From Gigantopelta aegis (taxonomy: Eukaryota; Mollusca; Gastropoda; Neomphalida; Peltospiridae): DNA of 64,000 nt. The position numbers and the translations under genes are program-made. The stretch is taken from the NCBI RefSeq assembly GCF_016097555.1, contig NC_054707.1:43423973-43487972 (forward strand), read 5' to 3'. The number at the start of each line of letters is the position of its first letter. Position 1 is the stretch's first letter. A model generated the notes under the pieces. It saw only the letters and a list, made by a program, of their open reading frames with translations, had not been told where the DNA came from and ran no database searches. Shown here piece after piece: positions 31,036-57,909 of the stretch.

Positions 31036-32495
31036 ACTCTTCAAAAAAAGAAACGCAAAAGGGTACAAATGGGTTATAACTCCGATTTTATGTTTCCTAC
31101 CGGTTCATGCTTTGTGAATATAAGGTCATTGCATGTCCCAAACACATTCCCACGGTTACATTCGATAAAATGCAGCTACTGTACAATAAAGTTCCAAAAT
31201 GTGAATATTCGCAAAAACGCAGCCACGTGCAAACCATGTCACCACTGCACGTGCGTTGTCTGAACGTGCAACATGAATACCGACAGTATAAAAGTGCAGG
31301 GTGTTCGCTTGCCTGGCCTCTGTATCTGGCCGACAGCTGACAATCCAGGACATGCCACGTCTCAGTGAACCGCAGAGAAACAATGCCATCGGCCGACTAG
31401 ACGCAGGCGAATCCAGAACGGCCGTTGCCAGGGCATTCCATGTGTCCCCAAGCACCATCTCCAGACTGTGGGACCGTTACCAGCAACATGGATCAACACG
31501 TGACCTCCCTAGATCCGGTCGACCACGGGTCACTACCCCCGGGCAGGACCGCTACATCCGGGTACGCCACCTTCGGGAACGATTGACTACTGCCACCTCC
31601 ACAGCCGCAGCAATACCAGGTTTGCGCAGGATATCCGACCAGACCGTACGGAACCGCCTACGTGAGGTAGGAATTCGTGCCAGACGTCCAGTTCGAGGTG
31701 TCATCTTAACACCACAACACCGTCGACTCCGACTGCAGTGGTGCCAGATTCATCGACAATGGCCTCAACTGCGATGGAGACAGGTGTGGTTCAGTGACGA
31801 GTCCCGATTTCTGCTCCGACGTCATGATGGAAGATGTCGCGTGTATAGGCGTCGTGGTTAACGTTATGCGGCAAACTGCGTGCAGGAAGTGGACAGATTC
31901 GGCGGGGGTAGTGTCATGGTGTGGGCAGCCATCTCACACACTGGCAGAACTGACCTGGTCCACGTGCAGGGCAACCTGAATGCACAGGGCTACATTGACC
32001 AGATCCTCCGGCCACACATCGTTCCAGTTATGGCCAACGCCAACGCAGTGTTCCAACATGACAACGCCAGGCCTCACACAGCACGTCTCACAACGGCTTT
32101 CCTACAGAACAACAACATTAATGTCCTTCCTTGGCCATCGATATCACCGGATTTGAACCCAATTGAGCATCTATGGGACGAGTTGGACCGACGCCTCCGA
32201 CAGCGACAACCACAGCCCCAGACCCTGCCCGAGCTGGCAGCAGCCTTGCAGGCCGAGTGGGCCACCATCCCCGGGACGTCATCCGTACTCTGGTTGCTTC
32301 AATGGGCAGGCGGTGCCAGGCAGTTGTCAACACACGCGGAGGCCACACCCGGTATTGACTCCAGATGACCTTGACCTTGGTGGTGTGTCCTATCACTTAT
32401 TCACATTTGGTAATTATCGGACTCACCATTCAATAATTAAATCAATTCTCCAAATGTTACGACAATGTGGTTTTGCGTTTCTTCTTTTGAAGAGT
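31036..32495 (+). mobile_element. Tc1-type DD34E transposon, nearly intact
   Basis: Terminal inverted repeats ACTCTTCAAAAAAAGAAACG (left) and the inverse of CGTTTCTTCTTTTGAAGAGT (right), flanked by TA in TATATA tracts. About 1.46 kb with one transposase frame inside. It inserted into a TA of an older repeat whose empty site is preserved near 19850. GC content of the coding part is well above that of its surroundings. Confidence 0.95.
31352..32358 (+). pseudogene. Tc1 transposase with one nonsense change and one frameshift
   Basis: Start ATG at 31352 (MPRLSEPQRNNAIGRLDAGE). A paired helix-turn-helix region (FHVSPSTISRLWDRY) and the GRPR-like linker SGRPRVTT are followed by the DD34E catalytic domain. 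The acidic residues are Asp in WFSDESRF, Asp in FQHDNARPH, and Glu in SPDLNPIEHLWD exactly 34 residues later. A TAA at 31859-31861 sits where relatives have Glu, and the frame continues after it. Near 32268 one base appears to be missing, since DVIRTLVASMGRRCQAVV follows in another frame. About 335 residues when whole, usual for Tc1. This copy is inactive but young. Confidence 0.92.
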
Positions 32496-40802: not shown

Positions 40803-41774
<972 letters not shown>

Positions 41775-42487
41775 CTGTAGCATTAGCTTTAATGCCAATT
41801 CTGTCCTTGACAACCACAGTGAGAAAAATAAACTGTGCCAACAGATTGACGCAGAAGAGGAACTTGACAAAGAGGTAGAGTATTCCCACAATGCATCTGT
41901 TTGTCGTTGTTCGGCTGATGACGAGAGCCGCATCTCTAAATATGTAACCTCGCTTCTCTGGTTTCATGGCTTGACTGGCCGACAGAGTGGACACAGTCTC
42001 GTTCATATTGACCCCCACTAGTTGTTTAAGTAGCTGCCACACTACAGCTGGTGCCTTGAAGACCGAGGCCTGGAGGAAGAGAATGACAGGAAACCACAGA
42101 TGCCACGACACGACTTTATCCTGGTGTGTGCTCGGGTCATAAGTGGCGAACATCCCAGGATCCTTGATGAACACTTGTTTGTGAAGACACACCTGGTGAG
42201 CGTAGGTGTTGAAGGCAGCAGTCGAGTGTGCCGGCGTCAAACACGAGATGGACAAGAAGAAGAACCTGGCGAGAAAAGCGCCGGCAGACATTGCAGATAT
42301 GAGCAGGACAGTCCAGTGTCCGTTCAGTCTGTCCACCCAGTCTTGGTCTATTCGTCGTCCGCCAAACACAGACAGTCCAGACATTGTCTGAAAAATCCAA
42401 TACAGAAAGTTTATATTATGAAAACAATTCATCTTTGTACATTTTGAAATACACTGTTACGTCTGTGATCTCTATGGCTAATTGATG

Positions 42488-46345: not shown

Positions 46346-47184
46346 TTAAAGGGACACACCCTAGTTACGGCTAGTTGTTAACCATTACGGCGTTGTTTTT
46401 CGCTATTAAACCCATTTTTCACAAATAAAATTGCACTTTACTTACCGTTTATTATTTAGAATATACATTTCCATTCACCTGAAGTGTTTTTTGGTAATCC
46501 TGGTAATCCTGGTTTTTGTAATACCACAAAATGCATTTTTCTTATTTCTTAAAAACGAACGCATGTTTGAGGAAAAAACCGTTGAGCAGACAAGGTCTAA
46601 TCTATTTTTAGACGGGATATTTCCATTTCAATGTCACAGACGTTGGTATACCACGTGACCGTTATCATTTTGGTTCGGTTTGTTTTCTCGTGCACGGTTC
46701 GCGCAATCAACATCCGATTTTTTGTTGTTCATTTGTGAGATTTTTCTCACAGTTCGTGAACATTTTCAGTAACAATAAAGTTCAGACAAGTAAGTGTCTC
46801 AATACAAAACGTTACAAACCTTTAAAACCAATAATTTTGTTAAGTCTTACGATATCTGGAGAGGAGATACAACCAGGACAGAACAGTTGGAACATGTCCA
46901 GGAGAGATGAAAAGAACGCACCCCAAGTCTGTGCGCACTCGGTGAAATTTGTCGTGACATAGGTATTGTTGTGCTTCGAGCGACATCTACTGGTGACATC
47001 AGAATACTAACTTTCAAAATTATTTCAAGCAATTGGGACATGGGGATTCCCATGGTATTTATCGATATAAAACCTGCTTTTTCACTCCATTTGATAAAAA
47101 CGTGATCTACGTGTGTTACAGGTTTGTAGATTAACCAAATTATAATTTATTTTCGCTGGATGGAACTAGGGTGTGCGGCTTTAA
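46346..47184. mobile_element. TTAA-flanked non-autonomous DNA element, full length
   Basis: Left TTAAAGGGACACACCCTAGT and right AACTAGGGTGTGCGGCTTTAA are inverted, with TTAA at both borders (46346-46349 and 47181-47184), as in piggyBac-type target use. 839 bp, no transposase. Its right end lies 97 bp upstream of the start codon of the cysteine-rich gene. Confidence 0.8.
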
Positions 47185-47280
47185 GACGTATGACTAAGGC
47201 GATGAAATACAAGTTCCGCTTGATAAAGACATTTAAACAACGGTGTCACGACAAACGGCCACAAGTTCGTCTTGCTCAAG

Positions 47281-47314
47281 ATGCAGACAGTAGTTTTAAT
47301 TGCGATTATCTCGG
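47281..47314 (+). CDS. Cys-module gene exon 1: start of signal peptide
   Basis: ATG CAG ACA start, 11 codons plus one base, donor GTAAGC (phase 1 out). Encodes [11 protein letters not shown]. Upstream TTG at 47272 is in frame but not a credible start. Confidence 0.8.
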
Positions 47315-48878
47315 GTAAGCTTTGCGTTGTATATGTTGCTCGGTTTTCTGTGTTAAAATCTATCCATATACTTTTAATTGCGTTTATCTCAGATAGGTTT
47401 TGCTTTGTAAAAAAATATGTTGCTTGGTTTCTTGTTAAAATCTATTGTTATACTTTTACTTGTGTTTGTCTCGGGTAGGTTTTGCTTAATTTGTATTAAA
47501 ATCTATCGATATAATTAACAATAACAATATAAAATACGTGGGGGGTTTTAATTAACAATTTATGTAACATTTATCATAATATGATTCATGTGGTTGTCCA
47601 ATAAATTTGCCGTCAAAATTGGGGTGGGACGTAGCCCAGTGGTAAAGCGCATGCCTGATAGGCGGTCGGTCTAGGATCGACCCCCGTCGGTGGGCCCATT
47701 GAGCTATTTCTCGTTTCAGTCAGTGCACCATAACTGGTATATCAAAGGTCGTGGTAGGTGCTACCCTTGCTACTAATAGAAAATGTAGCGGGTATACTCT
47801 CTATGACTATGTCATAATGACCATGTGTTTGACATTCAATAGCCGATGATTACTAAATCAATGTGCTCTAGTGGTGTCCTTTAATAAAACAATTTTTGTT
47901 TAACTTTGCCGTCAAACAGAATAACATTAAGTTGGACGGCAAGAATATCGATATATTTATACTTAGAACTGTGGCGAAATAGCTGATATTTTAATAGTAG
48001 CAGTAGGTGTGTGATTTGTATGGAACACGTACAGTTATTTCTCTAAAAATAAATAACATGTAGCTACAGTTGGTTTGGGGAAAGCTAAGCGTCAACTGCG
48101 CAACTAAGTTGATAAGCGGGACGTAACGCCAATAAGCTAGTACCTGTCAACCAGCGTCTAGCTAGCATACCTGATAGCAAATTCCTTTCTCCCCAACAAG
48201 TGTCACATATAAAAAAAAAATTTTTAAAAAAAATAATAATAATAATAAAAAAATAAAAAATAAAATAAAAATATTTAAAACAAATTAAAATAATAATAAT
48301 AATTAAAAAAAACCCACAAAAAAAAACAAAAAAAACAAGTGTCACATTCACCCACAGGTAAGTGGGTTACAGAATTTGCGCATGCGTATAAGTTGGATAC
48401 ATGTACAGCATAGCTAAGTGTGGTTACTAAGAAACCATACATGTATAATGCGATGTTTTTATACCGACCTCGGTGGCGCAGTGGCTAAGCCATCGGACTG
48501 TCAAATATAGGCAAAGGGTTCGCAGACAAACCAGAGTACCATGTTATCAGTAAGGCCACTACACCTTCTTCTTTCTCACTAACCAACTAACAAGTAACCC
48601 ACTATCCTGGACATATAGCCCAGATAGCTGAGGTGTGTGCCCGGGACAGTGTGCTTGAATATTGGATATAAGCACGAACATAAGTTGAATTGAATTGATG
48701 TTTTTATTTTATTAAGGCGAGTGTTCGGGGGAGGGGGGGGGGGGGTCGGGGCATTGATACACTTCCCTGCTCAAGCATATATTTTTTTAATATCAATATA
48801 TTGTCCTGGGGTGCATGGCTCGACCCCCGTCCGCCCCACCCCACACACACCTATAAATGTAGGTCGCCACAGTCTAGA

Positions 48879-48909
<31 letters not shown>

Positions 48910-49935
48910 ACTGCTAAAATCCCCGCACACACGCCTGTAAGGACACATTAAAAAAATATATAGCTCTATGTAGTGTGTATACTACCAAATCAAATCCCAT
49001 AGACGAAATAGTAACATATGCGGCTAAAACTCCTACCTGCAACGTATCAACCGACATAAACGCCACGGATATAAATACTACCACCCCTTACACTTAAAGT
49101 GAATCAGAAAAAAATGGGTGTCAAGCTGCTCGTTTCTGAGATAACGGGTAGCGTCTATGACTACCCTAGTTTCGCACAAAATTTGAGTACTTTTTTTTAC
49201 AGGTACCCCATACATGTTTCAAGCACAAGGCTACTTGACACATTGGTACTAGATGAAATAAAATTGCACATTTATTTTACCCAGATGAAACTATTATTTT
49301 TTGCTCACTCACATTTATCACCAATCACAGGACTTGTGGTGTTCACTTCTCTATCAAAAGTTCGGTGCACCTCGAACTTTGACCCAGCCGGAAGTTATTT
49401 GATATAGTACTACCTGTAAAAACTACATTAATTATCTAGCAACAGTCTGTCAGTCGGTCCCTTGTCTTCGCCTGTTTCTTTCTCTGTATCTGACTGGCAC
49501 ACACGCACAGATATATCTCCTCACCCACCACCCATTCACACTCTCCACTAATAACAAACCAAATGGTAATCCCCTGCACGGAAGTGTCAGTCCATAGTCA
49601 ATGTATGTAGCCAGAACTCTAGGCTAAGCTGAATCTTAATTGAATGCATTATTGTAGCCGGGAGGTGTGGAGGGAGTGGATATGTCGTTCCAATCACAAC
49701 TCTTTTTCGCCCCCCTCCAGACCTTTTAATAATGATTATAAAAGGTTTTGGAACACAGAGATGATGTTCCTGTCTTGGACGCAAGGGGTTGCTTCGCAAG
49801 AACTAAAGTCTTGCGCCAACGACAGGCGTGTGCTACAACTTGCTCTGAATGTGCACGTTAAACCCTCAGTAGAGTTCAGTCCAGAGATGATACTGGGGCT
49901 GTCAGAGCCGGGTGTGGCTGTGGGCTACGCCCCCC

Positions 49936-49966
<31 letters not shown>

Positions 49967-52900
49967 ACATACACATACACACTCCTCCTTGACAGCCCGG
50001 AAAGGTGAAATATGATAGGATTATAGGAGCAGCCGAGTTCCATACCAGACTGGTCTAGTTTCAACACAACAATAATCTGTCGCACCCTTTATCACACATT
50101 CCGGAAGTCATTGGAAATGACGCATCTGAAAACAAAGTTAAAGTTTGTTTTGTTTAACCACACCACTAGGGCACAATTGTTATAGTCTACTAATCATTGG
50201 CTACTGGATGTCAAATATTTGGTAATTTGACTTGTAGAGAATGAGTCACTGAGATCGAAAACACCTCAAGCGAGCGCCCTACCGACTCAGCTAGCTCCAG
50301 CCCCATCTTAAAATATTCCAATCAACTGACATCCGGGAAGAGAATTTTGACCTACATGTAGGAGGGCCGTAGGCTGAAGCTAAAATAGTTTTACTTTAAT
50401 ATTAGGATATTGATATAGGTGTACCGGCCTCGGTGGCGTCGTGGTTAGGCCATCGGTCAACAGGCTGGTAGGTACTGGGTTCGGATCCCAGTCGAGCCAT
50501 GGGATTTTTAATCCAGATACCGACTCCAAACCCTGAGTGAGTGCTCCGCAAGGCTCAATGGGTAGGTGTAAACCACTTGCACCGACCAGTGATCCATAAC
50601 TGATTCACAAAGGCCATGGTTTGTGCTATCCTGCCTGTGGGAAGCGCAAATAAAAGATCCCTTGCTGCTAATCGGAAAGAGTAGCCCATGAAGTGGCGAC
50701 AGGGGGTTTCCTCTCAAAATCTGTGTGGTCCTTAAGCATATGTCTGACGCCATATAACCGTAAATAAAATGTGTTGAGTGCGTCGTTAAATAAAACATTT
50801 CTTTCTTTCTTGATATAGGTGTAGACAAAAAGGTCGGCTAAGTTCATACTCGGACTCCCAACCCGCCTCCCTGTTATTGTTAAAGCTAATATATTCTATA
50901 TTGGATTGCAGAGAATGTATAAATGCAAGCAGTATAAACATTATAGTCACAAAATGTGGCAGCTTGCACTCATGAACCACTGTATAGACAGTGTATACGA
51001 ACATCTCTTCTTAACCTAAACTATATCCTTAGTTTAGCTGACAACCCACTAAGTCCACTGTAAGTTGTAGGTGGTACTACACCATATGACACCCCATTGC
51101 ATAGCTGTATGTGTGTTAACAATTTCAAGACGTACGACTGGCTGCTCCTAGTAGGTGATGACCAGGTCACCAATGCCATACAACGTTAAATTTCATTTTA
51201 TTTCCTAAAATATTTTTTCGTACGTACGAAATTATTTGAAGACAAAATCCAGTTTGGGCTTCTTATAAATATTAAGACGACTAGAAACACATTGAATATA
51301 CAGACACTGATATTCTAAACAATAAAAATATATTTAATATGTAAGTTTAATCGTAGAAATATTTTATTAGTCGGAAACATCTTACAATGCAGCAAACTCA
51401 GGAATGTCCCTTTAAAGTTTGCTTAAAACCTGGTTTTTGAGGATATGTAAGAAATAGAATAGTACACTCGTGTCCGTTATATACCATTTATCTCACAACT
51501 CGTTGTTTAAAAACGTATCAAACTCGCTTTCGCTCGTTAACTACATTTTAAAATTATGGTATCTAATGGCCGCTTATGTATTATTCTTTATATAACTAAT
51601 GCCAGTGTACGAGAAACACTCGAGATATTATTTATATTATGTAGTGAATGTTTATGTTTTGTTCGATTTCCAGTTTTGCCCGTCACGGTTTTAAGTGGAT
51701 GCGCAGAAATCAGTTCCTGCAGCTCCAACTTTTCCACGGAAAGCGGAGTGGAATGCACGTACGTAAACCCTTTCATCAAACATATTACACATGTGGCAGC
51801 CTGCGATCAGGTTTGACGGAGTTGTGTCTCTTGTTTTACAGCTTGAAGTTGACGAATAGAACCAGCCGACTGGCCTCGGTGGCGCAGTGGTTAAGTTAGT
51901 AGGTACAGGGTTCGCAGCCCGGTACCGGCTCCAACCCAGAGCGAGTTCTTAAGGGCTCAATGGGTAGGTGTAAGACCACTACACCCTCTTCTCACTAACC
52001 ATTAACCAACTAACCACTAACCCAATACCCTGGACAGACAGTCCAGATAGCTGAGGTGTGTGCCCAGGAAAGCGTGCTTGAATCTTAATTGGATATAAGC
52101 ATGGAAATAAGTTGAAATGAAACAACCAGCCCCGACCGCGTTGTGGTTAAGCCATCGGACATAAGGCTGGTAGGTACAGGGTTCGTGGCTCGGTAGCGAC
52201 TCCCACCCAGAACGAATTTTAACGACTCAATGGGTAGGTGTAAGGCTACTACACCCTCTTCTCTCTCTTACTAATCACTACTAACTAACCCTCTGTCCTG
52301 GACAGACAGCCTAGATAGCTGAGGTATGTGCCCAGGACAGCATGCTTGAACCTTAATTGGATATAAGCACGAAAATAAGTATGAAATGAAGAACAGAGTT
52401 GATAATTAGTTTTGGCACCTTCCTACGCCATTGATATATCTGATCATATCAGTCAGTTGTATGTTTGGAATATTACATGTTGGGGCCGTTCAACAATAAC
52501 GTAAGGCTCTAGGTGTATCAGGAAATGTGTTTCGAGGAGAGGGGATATTTGTAAATAGTTTGTCATTTTTATTCATAAATTTATATACAGCCATTGCAAT
52601 TTTTTAAACGGCTGTTTTATTACCAAACCAAATCAGGAGCGTCGGAAGCAATTAAAAGTTGGTACGTTCATGAAAGCAAAGCAATGTATATGATGAAATC
52701 TATAGGCCTACTATGCGAGGGCCATAGGAAGAGAAAACAAAACGTTCCTGGCCCCAAAAGTTGGACGGCCATGTCCGTACCGGCCGTACCGCTTTCGACG
52801 TCCCTGCAAACAGAAATACAAACGGATAATCTAATACCAGTGTCCAAATTGTGTCATGACAGGGACATGGAAAGGGATGTATTGGACGAGCGTTACATAG

Positions 52901-55900
52901 TTTTAAAGGAGGGAACTGGTCCTTTAACTCAAGCGTTACAAAACGTTAATGTTGAGAGCGATATAAAAAAAAGTAAACCTTTGCGTTACGTAATTGTTGA
53001 AAGGCACCCATTTTATTTATAATTTTTTTTCAAATATAACAATACTACTACTACTACTAATAATAATAATAATAATAATAATACATAATGCAAACAGAAA
53101 AAAACTCAGTCAGTTAATAATCAATTTTGCAACAACAACAAAAAACCCCAACAAAAATCAATTCTCCAAATATTCTTAATAGCTTCAGTCGCCCAGAGTA
53201 CCTTATTTTTGTTTCAATTTTATAACCAAAACTTTGTATACCGTTTCTGAAACCAGAAACGTGCATGCTCGCGAAAACAAAGGACCTTATAGCAGCAGTT
53301 ATTGAGGATGACCTTATTTCATTAACAGGAAACTTGCAGCTTATATCAGCTGTTTGAAGACTTCTGGGTGCCATGCGATCGCGCAAACCATTACAAATCT
53401 GGACCAGATTTACAACAGACTTTGCGTTTCAAGCACGCCTGGCACTAACAACGCATGGTCCTTCCTTGCTTCATATGGTAAGCTTAATTCGGTTTCATCT
53501 CACACAACTCCAAGGCCACAAGAAGAAACCATATTGGAAATGGGGGCAGTTGTTGACTGGGTAGGGGCTCAGAAGTTAATTAGGGCAGTGTTAAATGTTA
53601 TGTTTGTGTATGTTGCCTAAAACGCAATTTCCTATTAGCATCTGGTAATGTTTTGTTAATAATGCGTTGTTTTAAAGTTTGTGTGTGTGTGTGTGTGTGT
53701 GCATGCGTGTGTCGTATGACAGAAACTAAATTTTGTGGTACTCAGCAAGGGCGGTTCCAAGAAAGGGTACGAGGGGGACCCTTTCACCCCTAAACAAATT
53801 AAAGTACCCCATTTTTTTAAAGATTAGTTTACAATTTTCACTGAAGTGCCCATTTGCCCTTGATCTTCATCCTAAAATAGTCAGAGGAAGGTGATGGTGC
53901 TTTAGCAGTACTCTCAAAATGCTTCTTTGTTTTGTACTTTAAAACAATCGTGACCTAAACTAGTGATTGTATGTTTTACCTTCAGTTTCTCTCAACGGTT
54001 TATCATACCACAGCATCGCCAACTGTCACCCTCTGACTCAATGCTCGTCCAGCATGCCAGTTGATACGACGCTCTTATCAAAGGGAGACTATTCCCAGAT
54101 TTGCCCGTAAGTAACAGTTTTTCTTCCATAGACCTCTGATGCATACAGGCTATATAGCGTAGCGAGCATCGGTGTTCCATCGACTGGTACTAATCATACA
54201 CTTATAACCTCAAACCAGGACCCGAAAGCCGGTACTCTGGTAGCAGGGAAGAAAATCATAAAACATTGTCCACTATATTAACATAAATGCAAAACAATAG
54301 AGAACAAAAAATTTCTTGGGTGAATCACATACATAGTAATAATAACTAGTCCATATTTCGTGATTCAAAGAAATCTGAGCTAGGTGTTATCAACCTAATC
54401 TGGAGAGAGAGATAGTGAAACATACGTCATAGTGTTTAAAAACCAGGATCTGTCACTTTAAGAGTACTATTCGTGTTTTCAGCATCTACACCCATCGGAT
54501 AGGCTGTTGGAAGAGAGCCAGCACCAGCTGCAGTCTGCCCAGTGAACTAGCGCAGCACATAACTAGAACCCAGTCCATGTTGGACGCCTTGTGCAGCGTG
54601 GGAGGGGGATCAAAGAGTTTCACCGCGTCCTTCATCAATCTAGTGACCAGCGGTGGATGTAAGTGCATCTTCCAATATATGGGGGAGGGCGTACAGTGGT
54701 AAAGCGGTCGCAATTTCTCGTTCCAGCCAGTACACCACCACTGGTATATCAAAGGCCGTGGTATGTGCTATCCTGACTGTGGGATGGTGCATATAAAAGA
54801 TCCCTTAATTGCTTATAATGGAAAAAATATAGCGGGTTTCTTCTCTAAGACTGTATGTCAAAATAACCAAATGTTTGATATCCAATAGCCGATACTAATA
54901 AAAAATTTATTGTGATTTGGTAATTTTGTCATATAGTCTTAGAAAGGAAACCCACAACATTTTTCATTTAGTAGCAAGGGATCTTTTATATACATCTGAC
55001 AGGATAGCACATACCACAGCCTTTCATATTCCACACACTGTTTCCGTCATCTTCAGGAACATAACCAGTTTTTTATTTGCTTTTGGTAGGCTTTATTAAT
55101 GTAACTCTTTTACACTGTTTTGTTGATAACTTAAAAAAAAAAATCTGTTAATGTTGATCGTAAAATACTTTTGTTTGACACATTGATTGATATGTTATTA
55201 TTTTTTGTCTGTGATGTGGTGTCGCTAAATATTCATTCATTCATCCATCAATCCATTCATCGATCCATCCATCCGTTCATCCAATCACCCATCAATCCAT
55301 CCATCCATCCATCCATCCAATCATCCATCAATCCATCCAATCATCAATATATTGATTCACTCATTCATCCATCCATCCATCCATCCATCGATCGATCTAT
55401 CTATCCATCCATCTATTCAATCATCCATCCATCCATCAATCCATCCATCCAATCATCCATCCGATCATCCATCGATCCATCCAATCATCCATCCATCCAT
55501 CCAATCATCCATTCGATCATCCATCATCCATCGATCCATCCAATCATCCATCCATCCATCCATCCATCCATCCATCCAATCATCCATCCATCCATCCAAT
55601 TAGAAAATAACCAGATGGAGTTTTTAGATTCGCGGGTGTTATTGTCTATTACATTTTGATACCGCAAATGTCCATTGTAAACTGAATCTTTTTTCTACAG
55701 AACTAACTGTATATTTGGCATTTCTTGAAAAATAATACTTGGCTACAGTCTAACTGTAGACCCTTGAATCGTCAACTTCACCTGTTCCAATTGCTAATGA
55801 CGTCACTTTCTAATGAAAGCGTGCTTGAACCTTAATTGGATATAAGAACGGAAATAAATTGAAATGTAATGAATTGTATAACGTCTTCCATTCCAGCTGG

Positions 55901-57689
55901 ATTAGAAGGCTGTAAGGACGTTCTGAAGTGTGTCTTTAAAGCATATCCCATGAAGGATGGAAAACCCGACCAACAAGCTTTGCAAAACATACAACAAGAC
56001 AAGCCGGCCATGTGTCGGTACGTTTACCTCTGACGTCTATGAGTTCGTGTTGTTACCGTATCATCATTCCTGTGTTCACATAATGTTGTTTGTGTGTTCA
56101 CATTATTACATTATCGCCATTTGCGTGTTCACATTATTGCCATTTGTGTGTTCACATTATTACATCATTGTCATTTGTGTGTTCACATTATTACCATTTG
56201 TGTATTCACATTATTAAAGTATTGCCACGTCTGTTTTCATATTATTACATTATTGCCATTTGTGTGTTCATATTATTACATTATTGCCACTTGTGTGTTC
56301 ATATTATTACGTTATTGTCATTTGTGTTCACATTATTACATTATTGCCACTTGTGTGTTTATATTATTACATTATTGCCACCTGTGTGTTCATATTATTA
56401 CGTTATTGTCATTTGTGTGTTCACATTATTACATTATTGCCACTTGTGTGTTCATATTATTACATTATTGTCACTTGTGTGTTAACATTATTACATTATT
56501 GTCATGTGTGTGTTCACATTATTACATCATTGTCATGTGTGTGTTAACATTATTACATCATTGTCATGTGTGTGTTCACATTATTACATTATTGTCATTT
56601 GTGTGTTCACATTATTACATTATTGTCATGTGTGTGTTCACATTATTACATTATTTTCATGTGTGTGTTCACATTATTACATTAGTGTCATGTGTGTGTT
56701 CACATTATTACATTATTGTCATTTGTGTGTTCACATTATTACATTATTGTCATGTGTGTGTTAACATTATTACATCATTGTCATGTGTGTGTTAACATTA
56801 TTACATTATTGTCATTTCTGTGTTCACATTATTACATTATTGTTATTTCTGTGTTCACATTATTACATTATTGTCATGTGTGTGTTCACATTATTACATT
56901 ATTGTCATGTGTGTATTCACATTATTACATTATTGTCATGTGTGTGTTCACATTATTACATCATTGTCATTTGTGTGTTCACATTATTACATCATTGTCA
57001 TTTGTGTGTTCACATTATTACATTATTGTAATTAATCTCATCACTTAATACCGTATAGTCATTTGTTTACTTATTATTTCAAGGTACTCCAGTCTTCTAT
57101 TGCTTGTAAAATCATATTTAAGATGACTAAAATACATATAAATAATATTTACATTACGAAAATAATTTCAATCATATTGGGCACGCAGTTCATACACTAT
57201 GATATGTTACTAAATTAAAATTAAAATAAAATGCTTATATCTAATGCTAAACAGTCTGTAACTGCTGAACACACACTCTAATGTCGCACAACCGTGATCG
57301 TAACATTTGTAGAAAATACTAAGATTTATAAATAAATAAATATGTATCTCTAATACTGTATTATACGGTATTTTTCTTGTATTGAAACTGGTGATGCTGA
57401 GTGTTCAATGATGGGTCAAGCGAAGCAACTCATTGAAGCCGGTTAAACGACAATTTTTTTTTTTTTATTATTGTAGAATGGCCTATGCATCGTTTAAATG
57501 TATTGTAACTGGCGATGCCGGGTGTTCGATCGTCGCTCAAATGAAGCCATACATTGATGCGAGCAGGAAACAGTTAATCGAAATGTGTGGAAAAGATCCA
57601 AATGGTGCAGGTAGGAACACAGATGTGCAGAATATATTTACAGGATTACTGTAAATATACAAATATTATCAAATATTATACACACTCTC

Positions 57690-57771
<82 letters not shown>

Positions 57772-57909
57772 CGTTGTTATTATTGTCAGAGATGATGTTA
57801 TGATTATGATTTTCATGTTTCTTTCTTCTTCTGTTTTTCAGGATTACTGACGGGCTGGACTGTTTTGATATATGTCCTTGTTGCGTTAGTCATGATCCTA
57901 CATTCATAG
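47281..57909 (+). CDS. Secreted, probably GPI-anchored protein of three six-cysteine modules (8 exons, 288 aa)
   Basis: Not a family I can name. Eight exons (listed separately) join in frame to 867 bp: 47281-47314, 51674-51758, 53350-53477, 53986-54106, 54483-54658, 55897-56017, 57477-57610 and 57842-57909. Residues 1-20 form a signal peptide ([20 protein letters not shown]). The last 22 residues are a hydrophobic tail ending at the stop, preceded by small residues (NGAG), as in GPI-anchor signals. Between them are three modules. Module 1 is C-x5-C-x11-C-x1-C-x5-C-x17-C. Modules 2 and 3 are C-x5-C-x19 or x27-C-x8-C-x7-C-x20-C. Each module uses two exons; intron phases alternate 1,2,1,2,1,2,1, and the phase-2 intron always falls two bases after the third cysteine codon. 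This regularity strongly supports the model. Expected location is the outer face of the plasma membrane; function unknown. Confidence 0.85.
47294..47480. repeat. About 80-bp degenerate triplication that includes the signal-peptide exon end and its donor
   Basis: TTTTAATTGCGATTATCTCG (47294), TTTTAATTGCGTTTATCTCA (47372) and TTTTACTTGTGTTTGTCTCG (47454), each followed by GGTAAG-, GATAGG- or GGTAGG-type sequence and TTTTGCTT. Spacing is 78 and 82 bp. Confidence 0.8.
47618..47904 (+). mobile_element. SINE, head A - tail T2, 12-bp target duplication
   Basis: Flanked by TTTGCCGTCAAA at 47606-47617 and 47905-47916. A deletion in the centre removes the ATATAAAAGATC block. Confidence 0.9.
48190..48345. 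repeat. A-rich low complexity with AATAAT runs
   Basis: Imperfect (AAT)n and poly-A. A CAAGTGTCACAT motif repeats on both sides (48197 and 48336), suggesting a duplicated target around a poly-A-rich insertion. Confidence 0.6.
48463..48696 (+). mobile_element. Family D SINE, 11-bp target duplication
   Basis: Flanked by GATGTTTTTAT at 48452-48462 and 48697-48707. Head ACCGACCTCGGTGGCGCAGT, tail GGATATAAGCACGAACATAA. Confidence 0.9.
48727..48915. repeat. Poly-G, poly-C and (CA)n tracts
   Basis: G-rich run at 48727-48745, C19-type run at 48880-48895, then CACACA. Confidence 0.92.
48979..49415 (-). mobile_element. GGTAGTACTA MITE, copy 3
   Basis: TATACTACCAAATCAAATCC to TTTGATATAGTACTACC. The plus strand holds a 102-residue frame with [17 protein letters not shown], shared with copy 1. 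Confidence 0.72.
49766..49873 (+). mobile_element. Family E 3' module
   Basis: TTCCTGTCTTGGACGCAAGG, CGTGTGCTACAACTTGCTC and GTGCACGTTAAACCCTC. Confidence 0.65.
49929..49981. repeat. Poly-C followed by (CA)n
   Basis: A C-run of more than 20 bases, then CA and ACATACACA repeats. Confidence 0.95.
50143..50302 (-). mobile_element. Internally deleted T2 SINE
   Basis: T2 tail TTTGTTTTGTTTAACCACAC at left, a head-like CTACCGACTCAGCTAGCTCC at right; the centre is missing. Confidence 0.65.
50424..50809 (+). mobile_element. SINE, head C - tail T1, 14-bp target duplication
   Basis: Flanked by TTGATATAGGTGTA at 50410-50423 and 50810-50823, perfect. Full length; one of the youngest-looking copies. Confidence 0.93.
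51230..51415 (-). mobile_element. Partial copy of the TTAA MITE at 18924
   Basis: Inverse of that element's left half, ending CAAACTCAGGAATGTCCCTTTAA. Confidence 0.7.
51421..51605. repeat. Second copy of the 1543-1715 repeat
   Basis: AACCTGGTTTTTGAGGATAT, CTCGTGTCCGTTATATACC, AATGGCCGCTTATGTATTAT. It ends shortly before exon 2 of the cysteine-module gene. Confidence 0.6.
51674..51758 (+). CDS. Cys-module gene exon 2: end of signal peptide, module 1 first half
   Basis: Acceptor TTTCCAG, donor GTACGT after TGC-AC (phase 2 out). Encodes VLPVTVLSG then [20 protein letters not shown] second possible donor, GTAAAC four bases later, would also keep frame with an alternative acceptor in exon 3. The GTACGT choice is preferred because it places the intron exactly as in modules 2 and 3. 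Confidence 0.8.
51870..52122 (+). mobile_element. Family D SINE, first of a tandem pair
   Basis: GGCCTCGGTGGCGCAGTGGT head to GGATATAAGCATGGAAATAA tail. AACCAGCC occurs on both sides. Lies in intron 2 of the cysteine-module gene. Confidence 0.85.
52123..52385 (+). mobile_element. Family D SINE, second of a tandem pair
   Basis: Head CCCGACCGCGTTGTGGTTAA, body TGTCCTGGACAGACAGCC, tail GGATATAAGCACGAAAATAA. Same orientation as its neighbour and directly abutting. Confidence 0.85.
53039..53085. repeat. (ACT)n(AAT)n microsatellite
   Basis: CTACTACTACTACTAATAATAAT run in intron 2 of the cysteine-module gene. Confidence 0.92.
53350..53477 (+). CDS. Cys-module gene exon 3: module 1 second half
   Basis: Acceptor TATATCAG, donor GTAAGC, phase 2 in and 1 out. 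Encodes [20 protein letters not shown], then YNRLC. The alternative acceptor at 53359 (TTTGAAG) would pair with the alternative exon 2 donor. Confidence 0.8.
53986..54106 (+). CDS. Cys-module gene exon 4: module 2 first half
   Basis: Acceptor CCTTCAG, donor GTAAGT, phase 1 in and 2 out. Encodes [19 protein letters not shown] and ends at the third cysteine of the module (YSQIC). Confidence 0.85.
54483..54658 (+). CDS. Cys-module gene exon 5: module 2 second half
   Basis: Acceptor GTTTTCAG, donor GTAAGT, phase 2 in and 1 out. Encodes [20 protein letters not shown], then a helix-like segment to MLDALC. A 33-residue Gly/Ser-containing spacer leads to module 3. Confidence 0.85.
54686..54908 (+). 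mobile_element. SINE with deleted head, tail T2
   Basis: GTACAGTGGTAAAGCGGTCG head remnant jumps to ATTTCTCGTTCCAGCCAGT. The tail ends at AGCCGATACTAATAAA. Confidence 0.8.
54910..55034 (-). mobile_element. SINE fragment, tail T2, facing the preceding copy
   Basis: GATTTGGTAATTTTGTCATA through GTAGCAAGGGATCTTTTATA to CATACCACAGCCTTTCATAT. Confidence 0.75.
55229..55601. repeat. (ATCC)n tetranucleotide array
   Basis: CATCCATCCATC with ATCAATCC, ATCG and ATTC variants over about 370 bp in intron 5. Long Ser/Ile/His/Pro frames are artefacts. Confidence 0.97.
55815..55871 (+). mobile_element. Family D SINE tail fragment
   Basis: AGCGTGCTTGAACCTTAATT and GGATATAAGAACGGAAATAA only; ends 25 bp before exon 6. 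Confidence 0.75.
55897..56017 (+). CDS. Cys-module gene exon 6: module 3 first half
   Basis: Acceptor CATTCCAG, donor GTACGT, phase 1 in and 2 out. Encodes [20 protein letters not shown] and ends KPAMC. Same length (121 bp) as exon 4. Confidence 0.87.
56063..57033. repeat. 31-bp tandem array, about 31 units
   Basis: Unit core TGTGTTCACATTATTACATT with ATTGTCAT spacer. Some units use TTAACATT or TTCATATT variants. It begins about 45 bp after the donor of exon 6 and fills intron 6. A 233-residue frame and others here arise only because 93 bp is three units. Confidence 0.96.
57376..57446 (+). pseudogene. Decayed duplicate of cysteine-module exon 7
   Basis: TGTATTGAAACTGGTGATGC (57380 on) aligns with TGTATTGTAACTGGCGATGC in exon 7, about 75 percent identity over about 65 bp. 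Translation gives [20 protein letters not shown], then a stop. It corresponds to the fourth and fifth cysteines of a module. No clear acceptor precedes it. Confidence 0.8.
57477..57610 (+). CDS. Cys-module gene exon 7: module 3 second half
   Basis: Acceptor TTATTGTAG after a poly-T tract, donor GTAGGA, phase 2 in and 1 out. Encodes [20 protein letters not shown], then [18 protein letters not shown] decayed copy of this exon lies about 100 bp upstream. Confidence 0.88.
57681..57771. repeat. (CT)n(CA)n microsatellite
   Basis: In intron 7, between exon 7 and the GPI-signal exon. Confidence 0.97.
57842..57909 (+). CDS. Cys-module gene exon 8: GPI-type hydrophobic C-terminus and stop
   Basis: Acceptor TTTTTCAG, phase 1 in, stop TAG at 57907-57909. 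Encodes [20 protein letters not shown] plus Ser: hydrophobic, with no basic residues after it, as expected for a GPI-attachment signal. Confidence 0.85.

Follow-up and report, generated by a model that had tools for sequence, protein, structure and literature searches.

The 64,000-nucleotide window analysed here, from the gastropod mollusc Gigantopelta aegis (NCBI RefSeq assembly GCF_016097555.1, contig NC_054707.1, positions 43,423,973 to 43,487,972 of the forward strand), carries between 47281 and 57909 on its + strand a protein-coding gene of eight exons, whose product contains three six-cysteine modules that are each encoded by two exons. We consider that the gene belongs to a small, fast-evolving animal family and that its product probably passes through the secretory pathway to become a glycosylphosphatidylinositol (GPI)-anchored surface protein with three homologous helical modules and a binding or co-receptor-type role, a reading to which we give a probability of roughly 0.55. 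The modules share a cysteine framework and intron positions, and a complete paralogue in the same genome keeps the cysteines and the intron phases.

Gene structure and cysteine framework

Placed and joined by script, the exons give a coding sequence of 888 bp including the stop, which translates in frame to 295 amino acids (aa), with GT-AG boundaries at 7/7 introns and intron phases of 1-2-1-2-1-2-1 (Table 1). All eight exons and all splice sites of this copy are intact, without an internal stop, and the acceptor of exon 2 is conserved in three of the related copies described below (C14b, C14a and C9b). An earlier note on this DNA had described eight in-frame exons, the same phases, and a hydrophobic N-terminus and C-terminal tail; this layout holds, but two of its numbers do not, as the product has 295 rather than 288 residues and exon pair 2+3 measures 234 bp (85 + 149) rather than 213. 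The lengths it gave for the other two pairs, 297 and 255 bp, stand, and so does the remark that every pair is a multiple of three; since 234 is also divisible by three, its argument from symmetric exon pairs survives the correction.

The spacing between successive cysteines is x5, x11, x8, x5, x17 in module 1, x5, x19, x8, x7, x20 in module 2 and x5, x27, x8, x7, x20 in module 3. Modules 2 and 3 have in common the C-x8-C-x7-C-x20-C that had been reported earlier, and all three share C1-x5-C2 and C3-x8-C4, which had not. The phase-2 intron lies two bases past the third cysteine codon in 3/3 modules, again as the earlier note had it. Each module cassette has introns of equal phase on both sides and a coding length divisible by three (234, 297 and 255 bp), as do the cassettes of the paralogue C14b (234, 264 and 243 bp by summed exon lengths). 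Because each two-exon cassette lies between phase-1 introns, duplication of a whole module keeps the reading frame. The common intron phases and positions, together with the cysteine framework, give good support to the proposal that the modules arose when a symmetric exon pair was duplicated in frame. Intron 6 also holds a decayed part-copy of exon 7 with 76% DNA identity to that exon over 62 bases (tblastn E 0.002 within the window), which indicates that exon-level duplication has occurred within this gene.

Similarity between the modules at the level of residues was assessed with cysteine-kept shuffles, in which the cysteines stay fixed, the other residues are shuffled, and the shuffles that reach the real alignment score are counted. 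The score was reached by 2/2000 shuffles for modules 1 and 3, 28/2000 for modules 1 and 2 and 71/2000 for modules 2 and 3. Modules 1 and 3, the sole pair given to BLASTP, aligned at E 0.013 as a single comparison. Residue similarity offers moderate evidence for common descent of the modules.

The first 19 residues of the protein are hydrophobic (Kyte-Doolittle 2.18) and form a candidate signal peptide, while residues 277-295 form a hydrophobic C-terminal tail (Kyte-Doolittle 1.93). Read by eye, both intact proteins, that of the window and that of C14b, have the pattern DPN[G/T]A and, after it, a hydrophobic stretch without a charged end, and a GPI tail conserved in C14b is plausible. The signal peptide would direct the protein to the secretory pathway, a GPI anchor would replace the C-terminal tail, which has an exon to itself, and the three modules would stand outside the cell as rigid, compact helical bundles, each with three predicted disulphides. 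Such a surface protein would present three ligand-contact modules and would signal via partner proteins; since no part of it would lie in the cytoplasm, its likeliest role is in binding or as a co-receptor.

Table 1. Positions in the window of the eight exons and of an exon relic. C1 to C6 are the six cysteines of a module; C14b is the complete paralogue.
Feature	Position	Strand	Description
Exon 1	47281..47314	+	34 bp, as in C14b; holds the start codon and opens the candidate signal peptide; downstream intron of phase 1
Exon 2	51674..51758	+	85 bp; end of the candidate signal peptide and module 1 C1-C3; downstream intron of phase 2, 2 bases past the C3 codon; same length (85 bp) and phase in C14b
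Exon 3	53329..53477	+	149 bp; module 1 C4-C6; downstream intron of phase 1; same length (149 bp) and phase in C14b
Exon 4	53986..54106	+	121 bp; module 2 C1-C3; downstream intron of phase 2, 2 bases past the C3 codon; 106 bp with unchanged phases in C14b
Exon 5	54483..54658	+	176 bp; module 2 C4-C6; downstream intron of phase 1; 158 bp with unchanged phases in C14b
Exon 6	55897..56017	+	121 bp; module 3 C1-C3; downstream intron of phase 2, 2 bases past the C3 codon; 124 bp with unchanged phases in C14b
Exon 7	57477..57610	+	134 bp; module 3 C4-C6 and candidate GPI-attachment stretch; downstream intron of phase 1; 119 bp with unchanged phases in C14b
Exon 8	57842..57909	+	68 bp including the stop (68 bp in C14b as well); GPI-signal-like hydrophobic tail at the C-terminus, with no charged cytoplasmic end
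Decayed part-copy of exon 7	57372..57440	+	in intron 6, just upstream of the real exon 7; stop two codons further on

The introns of the gene contain several repeats. A CATC tetranucleotide array of ~90 units lies in intron 5 (window 55234-55598), and a 31-bp minisatellite in an array of 31 copies lies in intron 6 (56089-57033). Copies of a dispersed repeat at 51880-52400 and 55815-55869 have a common tail (GAAAGCGTGCTTGAA..TTAATTGGATATAAG) and are possibly short interspersed elements, with no transfer RNA called at either place by ARAGORN.

Paralogues and rates of change

The whole genome (1.149 Gb, 5216 contigs) was searched for further copies. The window protein matched at least 18 places at E up to 10, the gene's own exons included, with at least 11 on contig C9 and at least 7 on contig C14. 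One of the C14 loci, C14b, is a second complete gene encoding 280 aa, and when its protein was used as the query at least 20 places were found, 19 of them in the same C9 and C14 clusters and one more on C9 at E 2.9. C14b has the same exon order and identical intron phases, all of its exon-length differences from the window gene are multiples of three, and its protein retains 18/18 cysteines at 43% identity. Its phase-2 intron keeps the distance of two bases past C3 in modules 1 and 3; in module 2 the distance is five bases. Judged from sequence, a complete paralogue with this layout confirms that the structure of the window gene is beyond chance.

Between the window gene and C14b, the non-synonymous rate (dN) is below the synonymous rate (dS), at 0.507 and 1.048 over 279 codons. 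The near copies C14a and C14b differ at dN 0.028 and dS 0.091 (190 codons from six of the eight exons). In C14a, exons 3 and 4 could not be located. Their expected place, after exon 2 and before exon 5, includes a 2.5-kb run of N, and on this ground an in-frame loss of the two exons was rejected. C9b and C9c are incomplete neighbours of the window gene. The assembly of C9b contains N gaps, including one that interrupts exon 6, and for this reason C9b is not called a pseudogene.

Some ~840 bp lying just upstream of the window gene (window 46346-47187) recur at 97% identity ~97 kb downstream, among the partial copies (C9:43566928-43567770), which exceeds the 80-84% of the three longest among the remaining stretches that align there. 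This suggests a recent local rearrangement or conversion.

Known families and the RGM N-domain

Pfam was searched by hmmscan at an E limit of 10, although the filters of the program drop most matches above E 0.1, with the whole protein and with six modules (three from the window gene and three from C14b), and returned only weak, unrelated names. The earlier statement that the module matches no named family is therefore upheld for Pfam as far as hmmscan reaches. A phmmer search of the PDB gave a single, unrelated match at E 0.91, and no protein of such description was found in the titles and abstract openings of openly licensed PubMed Central papers, by which its absence from print is not shown.

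DUF19 (PF01579) and the 27-kDa hemolymph-type proteins, which are secreted, cysteine-rich and invertebrate, had been put forward for comparison. Neither was matched by hmmscan with the whole protein or the six modules, so that of the earlier interpretation the exon-pair duplication and the unmatched family are retained and the DUF19 comparison is not. A DUF19 family search of the same genome gave two places, the one over the cut-off being a simple repeat and the other standing at E 0.27, and identity with DUF19 was rejected. The GFR-alpha/GAS1 receptors (PF02351, GDNF) are receptors, GPI-anchored or otherwise at the surface, that contain several helical domains rich in cysteine, and the window protein is like them in its type of surface protein and its several cysteine-rich domains, with a helical fold that is here predicted. 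It differs from them in that neither the whole protein nor any of the six modules was matched by the GDNF/GAS1 profile. In the genome, two GDNF places passed the cut-off, one being a repeat and one encoding a GPI-like protein whose cysteines are denser and in another order, and a GDNF/GAS1 identity was likewise rejected. In its own right, a 267-codon open frame at C2:34344560-34344781 (L038), with a GDNF/GAS1-type match at E 0.0028 and a hydrophobic C-terminal tail, is a possible GFR-alpha/GAS1-like GPI protein. A genome search for uPAR/Ly6 (PF00021) found no match, but was uninformative as its control was silent as well.

Another known counterpart considered was the N-domain of the RGM proteins (PF06535). 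According to the available portion of PMC7354924, this is a three-helix bundle with three disulphides on GPI-anchored co-receptors for bone morphogenetic proteins (BMPs), and it binds BMP/GDF ligands; the N-domain of TWSG1, with three helices and seven disulphides, uses the same BMP site (PMC11167000, as far as the portion available describes it). A profile of the six modules, searched against the PDB at E up to 10, gave four matches, of which the first three were unrelated and the fourth and last was the RGMB N-domain (E 2.1), with 5/5 aligned cysteines coinciding. An RGM_N family search of the genome gave five places, one of them over the cut-off (E 4.6e-12); among the controls, one bacterial or archaeal genome gave a signal below the cut-off. 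The spacing of this own-genome RGM N-domain is C-x4-C-x31-C-x8-C-x9-C-x21-C, against C-x5-C-x19/27-C-x8-C-x7-C-x20-C in modules 2 and 3, which is identical at C3-x8-C4 and within one residue at C1-C2 and C5-C6, while C2-C3 varies; at C4-C5, modules 2 and 3 and RGMB have x7 and the own-genome RGM x9. The window protein also resembles the RGMs in carrying small extracellular domains on a GPI-anchored protein, the anchor here being a candidate. Read from its acceptor, the own-genome RGM exon seems to begin after a phase-1 intron.

There are also differences from the RGMs. The window protein has three modules rather than one, each split by a phase-2 intron, whereas the own-genome RGM domain lies within one exon. 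The loops of module 1 are shorter (x5, x17), and paralogue module 3 deviates as well (x16). The RGM_C half carries the autocleavage motif GDPH; this half had no hmmscan match, and GDPH is absent from the 295-aa sequence. No significant sequence match was found, with RGM_N hmmscan silent for all six modules, hhalign of the modules against RGM not significant (probability 0.9%, E 0.059), nothing from BLASTP of module 1 and no RGM recovered by a half-module profile.

The shuffling tests gave mixed results. The score of module 1 against the own-genome RGM was reached by 0/1000 cysteine-kept shuffles and that of paralogue module 1 by 6/1000, but the other four modules were not significant (98 to 728 of 1000), nor were the six modules against RGMB (63 to 627 of 1000). 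Hidden Markov model (HMM) scores of four RGM sequences were reached by 11, 25, 42 and 60 of 500 shuffles, and in the reverse test the counts for window and paralogue modules were 12 and 39 (module 1), 38 and 34 (module 2) and 350 and 109 (module 3) of 500. Column permutation supported only the C3-C4 stretch of module 1 (1330/40320 against four RGMs, 866/40320 against the own-genome RGM), with 559/5000 for all modules together and nothing for the C5-C6 stretch. As many comparisons were made, the single best RGM result is worth less than its face value. We suggest that the modules and the RGM N-domain have a similar cysteine framework and possibly a shared fold, rather than membership of one family.

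Alternative explanations and meaning

Short cysteine-rich domains often escape sequence searches, and on this general ground the modules could be members of a known cysteine-rich family that have diverged beyond the reach of Pfam, be it the nematode DUF19, GDNF/GAS1 or 27-kDa hemolymph type. None of these was among the hmmscan matches, within the filters noted above, and the own-genome places over the cut-off were repeats or a protein with another cysteine order, which makes such an explanation improbable. About equally improbable is a distant relationship of the modules to the RGM N-domain, a bundle of three helices with three disulphides that binds BMPs at their type-1-receptor site, in which case the product would be a BMP co-receptor or trap with three such modules on a GPI anchor. 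The coinciding cysteines of the RGMB match, the similar own-genome framework, the shuffle results of the two first modules, the apparent phase-1 start of the RGM exon, and the fold, anchor and BMP/GDF binding of RGM (in the available portion of PMC7354924) would all fit this. Against it are the rank of the PDB match behind three unrelated proteins at just E 2.1, the null profile and alignment searches, the non-significant shuffles of most modules, above all the third, and the lack of residue similarity in the C5-C6 stretch, which in RGM contains the BMP-contact helix; a cysteine-only decoy profile, which found no RGM and one unrelated chain at E 8.9, was uninformative. A bolder version, in which profile libraries have missed an unrecognised lineage of RGM-type BMP-binding domains whose in-frame tripling, with a conserved phase-2 intron inside each domain, provided these animals with a GPI-anchored, multivalent BMP co-receptor or trap, is slightly less probable still.

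The alternative that carries most weight, though it too is unlikely, is that the protein is secreted or single-pass membrane rather than GPI-anchored, the last exon being a plain tail or left out of a soluble form. In favour of this, a separate exon encodes the C-terminal hydrophobic stretch, which is short, and the GPI pattern is read by eye; set against this, neither intact gene has charged cytoplasmic residues past the tail, and small residues precede the tail in both. Very improbable, by comparison, is that the window copy is non-expressed or decaying. Its neighbouring copies are incomplete as assembled, exon 3 of C9c has one internal TGA, and the window gene differs from C9b at dN 0.060 and dS 0.077 (109 codons), pointing to weak constraint among the nearest copies; the window copy, however, is complete and free of internal stops, and its dN is below dS against C14b. 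The window gene also differs from C9c exon 3 at 6 of 149 bases, with zero synonymous differences, and together with the C9b comparison this indicates a protein that changes fast.

The stop in C9c and the weak constraint against C9b also weigh against our preferred reading of a three-module, GPI-anchored binding protein, as do several further points. The dS of 1.05 between the window gene and C14b is near saturation, which makes their dN/dS ratio rough. Column permutation on the C3-C4 and C5-C6 stretches, run on six module-module comparisons as a control for the RGM test, was significant only for the C5-C6 stretch of modules 1 and 2 (29/5000), and not for the other five (649 to 2177 of 5000); given these patchy results and the modest shuffle results, the framework and intron positions bear most of the weight for common descent. 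The helical fold is predicted at low confidence, from single-exon models with mean pLDDT (predicted local distance difference test) values of 52.7 for exon 5, which has helices at residues 20-38 (C5-C6) and 44-55, and 56.6 for exon 7, which has a helix at 27-38 with short strands ahead of it. Lastly, the binding role, although the likeliest, is read solely from the architecture of the protein.

Elsewhere in the window, a 423-codon open frame at 41188-42456 (- strand) matches innexin over nearly the whole Pfam profile (E 2.7e-48) and is apparently a single-exon gap-junction gene, ~5 kb upstream of the eight-exon gene. Like the RGM gene of this genome, it is consistent with an invertebrate source. 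Two adjoining open frames parted by a stop at 31292-32365 (+ strand) match a Tc1/mariner-type transposase (HTH_Tnp_Tc3_2, E 2.6e-11; DDE_3, E 4.7e-14) and look like a transposon relic.

The gene offers a clean example of a surface ectodomain built by in-frame duplication of an exon pair, with a complete paralogue that keeps the layout. It resembles the class 1-1 module proteins of exon shuffling in its phase-1-bounded modules and in-frame duplication (cf. PMC8001218, in the portion available), and differs from them in that its modules also carry a near-fixed phase-2 intron, giving a two-exon cassette. Were the RGM N-domain fold to prove true, the small BMP-binding fold family would be extended and a new class of invertebrate co-receptor suggested. 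If the fold is not that of RGM, the module would be an unnamed animal extracellular module, of a kind that is common in the surface proteins of invertebrates.

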